Assembly: GCA_025057455.1 (NCBI GenBank)
Contig: JANWWY010000007.1
Location: forward strand, 1 to 51,394
Length of the DNA: 51,394 nucleotides
Direction: 5' to 3'
Source of the DNA: Aquificaceae bacterium
GTDB lineage: Bacteria > Aquificota > Aquificia > Aquificales > Aquificaceae
The translations under genes were made by a program, and so were the position numbers. Below the pieces are notes generated by a model. The model saw only the letters and a list, made by a program, of their open reading frames with translations. It was not told the DNA's origin and searched no databases. Positions 43,639 to 45,466 of the stretch are shown here, in pieces (position 1 is the first letter of the stretch; each line of letters starts with the position of its first letter).

Positions 43639-44298
43639 ATGATACCCATAAGGGATTTAAATCCCCACAGAAGTTTTCCTGTGGTGAACTTTTCCATAAT
43701 CCTTTTGTGTTCCCTCATGTGGCTTTATGAAGTTAGCCTCTCTGAGGAGAAGTTGGAGCTTTTTATATTTGATTATGGGCTTGTGCCTGTTAATTTATTT
43801 GATAGACCTCAAACCCTTCTGACACATATGTTTTTGCATGGTAGCTGGCTTCACATAATCGGGAACATGTGGTTTCTTTGGGTCTTTGGTGATAACGTAG
43901 AAGACAGGTTAGGTAGGTTTAAATATATTATCTTCTACATACTCTGTGGGCTTGGGGCAGCCCTTATACAAACATTGATAAGTTTTATCTTTGGTGGTGC
44001 CAACATACCCATGGTGGGTGCAAGCGGGGCCATAAGCGGAGTTTTAGGTGCATACCTTTGGCTCTTTCCCCATGCCAGAATACTGGCATTGGTACCCATA
44101 TTTTTCTTTCTTACCTTTATGGAGCTTCCTGCGGTCTTTTTCATAGGCATGTGGATACTTATACAGATAATAAACGGTCTTATAACTCTGCCCTTTGCGG
44201 GTATGGGTGGCGTTGCATGGTTTGCCCACATAGGAGGCTTTTTTGTAGGCTACTTCCTGGCTAAGGCTTTTTACAAGAAAAGGTTCTACTATATGTAA
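43639..44298 (+). CDS. Rhomboid-family intramembrane serine protease
   Basis: 219 residues with six hydrophobic segments. Catalytic Ser129 is in MVGASGAISGVLGAY, catalytic His198 in WFAHIGGFFVGY, and the oxyanion Asn76 in HIIGNMWFLWVFGDNVE. It cleaves membrane proteins within the bilayer; substrates are unknown. The start has no SD and is separated from divergent lptB by 23 bases. Confidence 0.93.
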   Translation: MIPIRDLNPHRSFPVVNFSIILLCSLMWLYEVSLSEEKLELFIFDYGLVPVNLFDRPQTLLTHMFLHGSWLHIIGNMWFLWVFGDNVEDRLGRFKYIIFYILCGLGAALIQTLISFIFGGANIPMVGASGAISGVLGAYLWLFPHARILALVPIFFFLTFMELPAVFFIGMWILIQIINGLITLPFAGMGGVAWFAHIGGFFVGYFLAKAFYKKRFYYM

Positions 44299-44322
44299 CT
44301 TTGTTACTGACATCCCCCGTAG

Positions 44323-44362
44323 GCACCTCCAGAATATTGGTATAACCAGAAAAAGGAGGTGC
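44323..44362 (+). promoter_or_regulatory. SD-sequestering stem / extended -10 upstream of the P460 gene
   Basis: GCACCTCC (44323-44330) is the exact complement of GGAGGTGC (44355-44362), which contains the SD of the P460 gene (ATG 44367). A smaller stem TGGT/ACCA (44338-44348) nests inside. In RNA read through from the rhomboid gene the SD would be paired. The inner segment also contains TGG-TATAAC (44338-44346), an extended -10 whose transcripts would start near 44353 and lack the left arm, leaving the SD free. Confidence 0.55.
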
Positions 44363-44366
44363 AATC

Positions 44367-44840
44367 ATGAAAGGATTTCTTTTCTTAGGTTTGATGGCTG
44401 GTTTTAGCCTTGCTCTTGCAGAAGCCTTTAAGGTGGCACCAGAAAAGTACAGAGCCTGGAACCATGTAAAAAGCATGGTAATCTTTGACCAAAAGCATCC
44501 CCTTTTCAACCCCTTTAGCGGTATACATCATGTTTACGTAAACGAAAAGGGACTGGGAGCTATAAAGAAGGATGGAAAGAGGAGCTTTCCTGATGGAACT
44601 GTAATAGCTATAGTCTTCTACGAGCATGTGCTTGACAATGGTGCTTACATGGAAGGTGCAAAGAGAATAGAAGCCTTCATGGTAAAGGACAGCAAAAAGT
44701 ACAAAGCTACTGACGGCTGGGGCTATTTTGGTTATGATGGTAAGGGGAACAATTTGATAAAGGACATGGCTAAGGATTGTCATGCATGCCACGCACAGGT
44801 GAAGGACAAGGATTTTGTTTTTTCTGTCTGGACAAAGTAG
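44367..44840 (+). CDS. Cytochrome P460 family protein
   Basis: 157 residues with a signal peptide (about 1-19). The fold blocks EKYRAWNHVKSMVIFD, GIHHVYVNEKG and TVIAIVFYEHV match the P460/c'-beta family. Heme c is attached through C138-H-A-C141-H142 near the C-terminus. Family members oxidise hydroxylamine or bind NO and other small ligands in the periplasm; which applies here is not decidable. The stop is 2 bases from the convergent crp stop. Confidence 0.88.
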   Translation: MKGFLFLGLMAGFSLALAEAFKVAPEKYRAWNHVKSMVIFDQKHPLFNPFSGIHHVYVNEKGLGAIKKDGKRSFPDGTVIAIVFYEHVLDNGAYMEGAKRIEAFMVKDSKKYKATDGWGYFGYDGKGNNLIKDMAKDCHACHAQVKDKDFVFSVWTK

Positions 44841-44842
44841 TA

Positions 44843-45466
44843 TTAACTGCGGGCTTCAGCCCGCCTTCTTAAGCCTTCAACGTCCTTTATAAAAACCTTT
44901 CCCCTGCAAAGACCGATAAGCCCTTCTCTTTCTAAATCCTTCAGAGTTCTACTAACAACCACCCTCACGCTTCCCACATCCCTGGCGATTTCCTCGTGGG
45001 TCTTTTGGATAAAACCTTCCTTTGCGTACATTAACAAGTACTTAGCCAATCTTTCCTCAACGCGCTCAGATATGTATGAGTTTATCTTGCCCAAGACTGA
45101 AAGAAGATTTTTAGATAAAACTTTCATGAACAGAGACCTCCACCATCGGTTTTCTTCAAACAAGCTTATGGCAATGTCTGGGGGAATCATGTAGATTAGA
45201 GAATCTTCTTCCGCCCTTGTGTAGGCAGGGTATTCTGTGCCTGCATAAAGGGTTAGCATGGCAATTATGCACATTTGCCCAGGCATCAGGTCGTATAGGT
45301 TTATCTCCCTGCCAGAATCGGATATGAGAAAAACCCTTAGACTTCCCCGCTCAAGATAAGGGACACCTGTGCAATAGCTACCCTCGGAGAACAGAAGGAC
45401 TCCTTTTTTCACCTTATGTGGTATCAAACCTAACTCAAGTAGACTTTTTCTTCCCTCCACCTTCAT
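44843..45466 (-). CDS. Crp/Fnr-family transcription regulator
   Basis: 207 residues: an N-terminal cyclic-nucleotide-binding-like beta-barrel (about 10-115), a dimerisation helix and a C-terminal winged helix (TQKTHEEIARDVGSVRVVVSRTLKDLEREGLI). No Fnr-type N-terminal cysteine cluster is present, and the cAMP phosphate-binding block is poor, so the effector is unknown. ATG 45466 lies 7 bases after minus-strand TATATT and has no SD. It faces ridA across 17 bases. Confidence 0.9.
   Translation of the reverse strand: MKVEGRKSLLELGLIPHKVKKGVLLFSEGSYCTGVPYLERGSLRVFLISDSGREINLYDLMPGQMCIIAMLTLYAGTEYPAYTRAEEDSLIYMIPPDIAISLFEENRWWRSLFMKVLSKNLLSVLGKINSYISERVEERLAKYLLMYAKEGFIQKTHEEIARDVGSVRVVVSRTLKDLEREGLIGLCRGKVFIKDVEGLRRRAEARS

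Follow-up and report, generated by a model that had tools for sequence, protein, structure and literature searches.

The cytochrome P460 gene of a heat-loving Aquificaceae bacterium lies close behind a rhomboid gene on the same strand, and an inverted repeat between the two covers its Shine-Dalgarno (SD) sequence. This raises the question of whether translation of P460 depends on where its mRNA begins. A sequence-only reading of the window, by which we mean the whole stretch of 51,394 nucleotides that was analyzed, had proposed that RNA entering from the rhomboid gene is silent for the cytochrome and that RNA from a dedicated promoter is translated, with an RNA thermometer as the alternative.

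The SD of P460 lies in a stable predicted hairpin

The P460 gene (44367 to 44840, plus strand, ATG at 44367) encodes 157 amino acids and matches Pfam PF16694 (E 1e-30). The rhomboid-family membrane protease gene upstream (43639 to 44298, plus strand; PF01694, E 3e-35) ends in a stop codon at 44296 to 44298, and the 68-nt gap between the two genes holds the operator, the promoter, the predicted transcription start, and the SD. Within this gap, GCACCTCC (44323 to 44330) and GGAGGTGC (44355 to 44362), the latter being the SD of P460, are exact reverse complements over 8 bp. Nested inside this outer stem, TGGT (44338 to 44341) faces ACCA (44345 to 44348) across a 3-nt loop. Thus, every element of the hairpin described in the sequence-only reading was confirmed, including the identity of the right arm with the SD.

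The predicted stem has a folding energy of -18.6 kcal/mol, and 0 of 200 shuffles of the 53-nt segment were as stable (z = -5.3); for a longer, 92-nt segment, the z score was only -1.55. In the long RNA, the SD sits in the 3' strand of this stable predicted helix, and the predicted energy needed to open it (14.7 kcal/mol) ranked first in a sample of 512 genes that covered two genomes of the genus. When the P460 RNA was made to begin 26 nt before the ATG, the opening cost was about 1.4 kcal/mol. The genomic backgrounds in this analysis were drawn from five genomes, each represented by 20 stretches no longer than 20 kb.

As bare DNA, the 8-bp repeat is unremarkable, because chance gives similar counts: GC-rich perfect 8-bp inverted repeats with a loop of 15 to 35 nt occur once in the window and 0 to 3 times in Markov simulations. 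A stem that coincides with an SD is rarer. We found a Watson-Crick 8-bp stem on the SD in 2 of 257 SD-bearing genes sampled from the window's genome (about 1%). The evidence here is comparative. Separately, a second gene of this genome (L147:16812-17321, minus strand), which has a Tat-like leader, carries an 8-bp ATACCTCC/GGAGGTAT stem on its SD with CATAT/ATATG nested inside.

A conserved, predicted promoter would place the left arm outside P460's own mRNA

Seven genus sequences, the window included, carry a palindrome, TGTAAC-N3-GTTAC, upstream of P460, with one or two changes in some. It is followed by CAGACA, CTGACA, or CGGACA and then, after exactly 17 bp, by CATAAT, CAGAAT, GAAAAT, or TAAACT, so that the relatives' common pattern after the palindrome is NNGACA-17 bp-CANAAT. 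In the window, the palindrome GTAACTTTGTTAC (44295 to 44307) overlaps the rhomboid stop codon. The -35-like hexamer CTGACA (44307 to 44312, plus strand) aligns with CAGACA and CGGACA of the relatives, and the -10-like hexamer CAGAAT (44330 to 44335, plus strand), 17 bp from it, corresponds to CATAAT in four relatives. From this -10, we predict a transcription start at 44342, plus or minus 1 to 2 nt, in the hairpin loop. The left arm lies within the -35/-10 spacer, its last base being the first base of the -10, and would therefore be absent from P460's own mRNA. The predicted starts in the genus sequences all fall downstream of the left arm.

A dyad about 41 bp upstream of the start is the geometry of class-II Crp/Fnr promoters. 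In all seven genus sequences, the palindrome (center at 44301 in the window) precedes the predicted start by about 41 bp, near -41.5, with the -10 at the proper distance. On sequence grounds, P460 appears to have a promoter of the class-II Crp/Fnr kind, with its start near 44342. A Crp/Fnr-type regulator gene (44843 to 45466, minus strand; PF13545 and PF00027), convergent with P460, adjoins it, and the recognition helix of its product, GSVRVVV, is invariant in the relatives; the fuller form, GSVRVVVSR, recalls that of NtcA. The proposed activator at GTAACTTTGTTAC is probably the product of this gene. The putative site GTAAC-N3-GTTAC differs from class-II Crp/Fnr promoters in general by its odd-numbered spacing and its single copy in each genome.

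The exact palindrome is present as a single copy in each of four genus genomes, always 70 to 72 nt before the P460 ATG, and degenerate forms stand upstream of P460 in 7 of the 8 P460-bearing genomes of the genus. Those single exact copies, each beside a convergent Crp-type gene, resemble a single-site regulon. In another genus of the family (L009 to L015), the region before P460 contains an FNR/NNR-like box, TTGACATATATCAA, together with the inverted repeat CTGAAAA...TTTTCAG. There the convergent neighbor looks by eye to be of the HxlR type rather than Crp, a possible regulator swap.

The sequence-only reading had placed the promoter elsewhere, at an extended -10, TGGTATAAC (44338 to 44346), within the nested stem (44338 to 44348). 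This is weak promoter evidence because the window contains TGNTATAAY 7 times where 3.0 would be expected. Neither the nested stem nor TGGTATAAC is conserved in the relatives, and we retain the latter only as a secondary possibility. The dedicated promoter named earlier was probably the wrong one, the conserved CTGACA-17-CAGAAT taking its place, but the consequence drawn from it survives: RNA starting at the predicted position, about 44342, would still exclude the left arm.

Pairing of the spacer with the ribosome-binding site recurs in relatives that share the rhomboid context

In four loci of the genus (the window, L005, L006, and L007), the rhomboid gene ends 65 to 69 nt before P460. The two genes are separated in L002, L003, and L004 by a gene in reverse orientation that encodes about 353 amino acids (clear in L002 and L003). 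L008 was left out of the comparison because its upstream region is different and has no recognizable SD. The lowest-energy fold joins the spacer to the region of the ribosome-binding site (RBS) in 7 of 7 genus loci, with left arms and registers that differ. L005 pairs GCACCTTCTGAG with CTCAGGAGGTGC (12 pairs, one of them G-U), L006 pairs GCCTCCTT with AAGGAGGT, and L007 pairs GACC-CGCGCC with GGTGCGGTC. Duplex energies in the rhomboid loci are -16.3 (window), -23.7 (L005), -16.1 (L006), and -15.6 kcal/mol (L007); with the reversed gene between, they are -11.6, -9.6, and -8.2 kcal/mol (L002 to L004).

We combined the P values of L005, L006, and L007 by Fisher's method, leaving out the window, where the stem was first found. 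The combined P was 4e-5 to 3e-6 when shuffled or random spacers served as the null, 0.0011 to 0.0036 by SD opening energy, and 0.0018 when each relative was compared with position-matched genes from its own genome. Across all nulls, the three relatives that keep the same upstream gene keep the pairing at P values of 0.004 to 3e-6. By position-matched duplex, no gene in the respective genome samples outranks the window or L005, and L007 alone is marginal, not significant in most tests. Pairing is weak in L002 to L004 (P = 0.01 to 0.2), and it is absent outside the genus at two loci with divergent neighbors (L035 and L036).

The spacers are close to independent samples because the proteins are well diverged, but L002 to L004 form one clade, and the inner branches of the tree are weakly supported. 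The correlation with the rhomboid context rests on few events, since it compares four sequences that have this context with one clade that does not. Column-by-column covariation of the two arms in a MAFFT alignment was not significant. The arms therefore did not covary in relatives as the sequence-only reading had asked; stems form instead in other registers and with other left-arm sequences. A null result for in-register covariation is expected if registers drift and is equally expected by chance. Across the genomes, we found no excess of SD-hiding stems downstream of codirectional genes.

Three further observations concern individual loci. L013, a more distant relative, has an 11-bp SD complement: TCACCTCTTTC, upstream of its FNR-like box, complements GAAGGAGGTGA of the RBS despite a divergent upstream gene. 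L014, which has a codirectional neighbor, lacks such an SD complement. The P460 gene of L016 (G049:C54) is interrupted by an in-frame TAG close to where the match begins, which points to a pseudogene or an assembly error. The contig of L031, titled "Acidobacteria bacterium isolate J001," shares its P460 position with the window-genus contig of L005 and is probably a mislabeled record.

A hairpin that would silence read-through RNA

We put the probability at about 60% that the hairpin keeps rhomboid RNA shut and leaves own-promoter RNA open. The comparison supports this central idea of the sequence-only reading, as the pairing recurs in three relatives with the rhomboid context and is weak elsewhere; the promoter it named is probably not the right one. 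A Crp/Fnr-type activator would turn P460 on by binding GTAACTTTGTTAC, which precedes the predicted start near 44342 by about 41 bp. The resulting mRNA would have its 5' end in the hairpin loop and leave its SD unpaired. Rhomboid RNA would also enter P460, because no terminator-like site was seen between the rhomboid stop and P460. Such read-through RNA would additionally carry the left arm, transcribed from the -35/-10 spacer, which would pair with the SD and block ribosome binding. Since the left arm would mask the SD in read-through RNA, we propose that synthesis of the cytochrome is confined to times when the P460 promoter itself is active. The silencing arm may have been placed in the spacer because this is the only stretch near the SD free of the operator and the -10. 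Translational coupling to the rhomboid gene was set aside, because the left arm, at 44323, should be out of reach for a ribosome on the stop codon at 44296 to 44298.

A more tentative extension, to which we give rather less than an even chance, is that the promoter spacer is under a double code. Complementarity to the RBS would be selected while sequence and register drift, and the constraint would relax when a change of gene order ends read-through. If so, a compact thermophile genome would be insulating a Crp-type regulon of one gene without a terminator.

Other explanations for the hairpin

The spacer may simply happen to complement the SD, without function. We consider this unlikely, yet it is the contender that we take most seriously: GC-rich 8-bp inverted repeats arise at random about 1 to 3 times per window length, about 1% of SD-bearing genes have an 8-bp stem on the SD, 2.4% of the genes sampled reach -15 kcal/mol or better in a position-matched duplex, and the covariation test was not significant. 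Chance fits poorly, however, with pairing that recurs in three independent relatives with unlike arm sequences and with the top ranks of the window and L005. Template switching, a quasipalindrome mutation that yields perfect inverted repeats without selection, would account for exact or nearly exact arms of 8 and 12 bp with unlike sequences in different species. It leaves unexplained both why pairing is weak in the clade that has the inserted gene and why the arm occupies the one stretch left free between operator and -10, and we assign it a very slight probability indeed.

The stem might instead serve the rhomboid mRNA, in protection or processing of its 3' end, or act as an operator in DNA, the SD being included incidentally. 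Its position directly past the rhomboid stop, where no other terminator is present, agrees with a role for the rhomboid mRNA. However, no T tract follows the stem, arm sequences and spacing vary among relatives in a way that does not suit a DNA operator, and the 3' arm is the SD region in 4 of 4 rhomboid contexts; these points leave such roles a slim chance. The thermometer offered in the sequence-only reading, or another 5' untranslated region switch, would put the main P460 start before the left arm and have heat or a ligand open the stem. An SD in a stem and a thermophilic family are what it would call for, but the conserved promoter spans the left arm, and close relatives keep this promoter while their stem weakens. 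The hairpin region matched no Rfam family. A thermometer is further disfavored because opening the long RNA is predicted to cost 6.3 kcal/mol even at 75°C; the cost is still 3.7 kcal/mol at 85°C, and the stem is not predicted to melt. We regard this switch as hardly likely.

Comparison with known systems

A literature search on RNA control of cytochrome P460 in Aquificales found nothing on point. Fold-back inhibition of the Tn10/IS10 transposase also separates two RNAs, as external read-through RNA hides the start region and the element's own RNA does not. It differs from P460 in that it protects a mobile element and its sequence is fixed by the element's end.

In phage T4 gene e (lysozyme), as in soc, 49, and I-TevI, a helix holds the SD in its 3' strand, and the DNA for the 5' strand contains a dedicated late promoter; for gene e, late transcripts without the 5' strand are translated, whereas the long early ones stay silent (PMC3014915). 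P460 has the same anatomy, with the SD in the 3' strand and a promoter across the 5' strand, the P460 start being a predicted one. The T4 genes are timed by a phage sigma factor, and their structure and silencing were measured, whereas P460 is a bacterial cytochrome gene with a predicted Crp/Fnr-type promoter and a predicted fold. In Bacillus subtilis sigG (spoIIIG), a large hairpin has been proposed to block translation of spoIIG read-through RNA, and it cannot form in own-promoter RNA (PMC5942855). Like P460, sigG is a cellular gene with a hairpin that is proposed to act against read-through, in its case from an upstream operon, and that would be excluded from own-promoter RNA. The sigG hairpin has more than 20 pairs and serves sporulation timing, whereas those of the P460 type have 8 to 12 pairs inside one promoter spacer.

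If our reading is true, such hairpins can be retained by function and not by sequence, and alignment-based RNA searches would therefore miss them. More cases could be found by a simple scan of promoter spacers against the RBS downstream of codirectional genes that lack terminators. The arrangement of T4 gene e and sigG would then also serve an ordinary metabolic gene in a deep-branching thermophile. The silencing hairpin is apparently a known trick, that of T4 lysozyme and Bacillus sigG, used in a new place.
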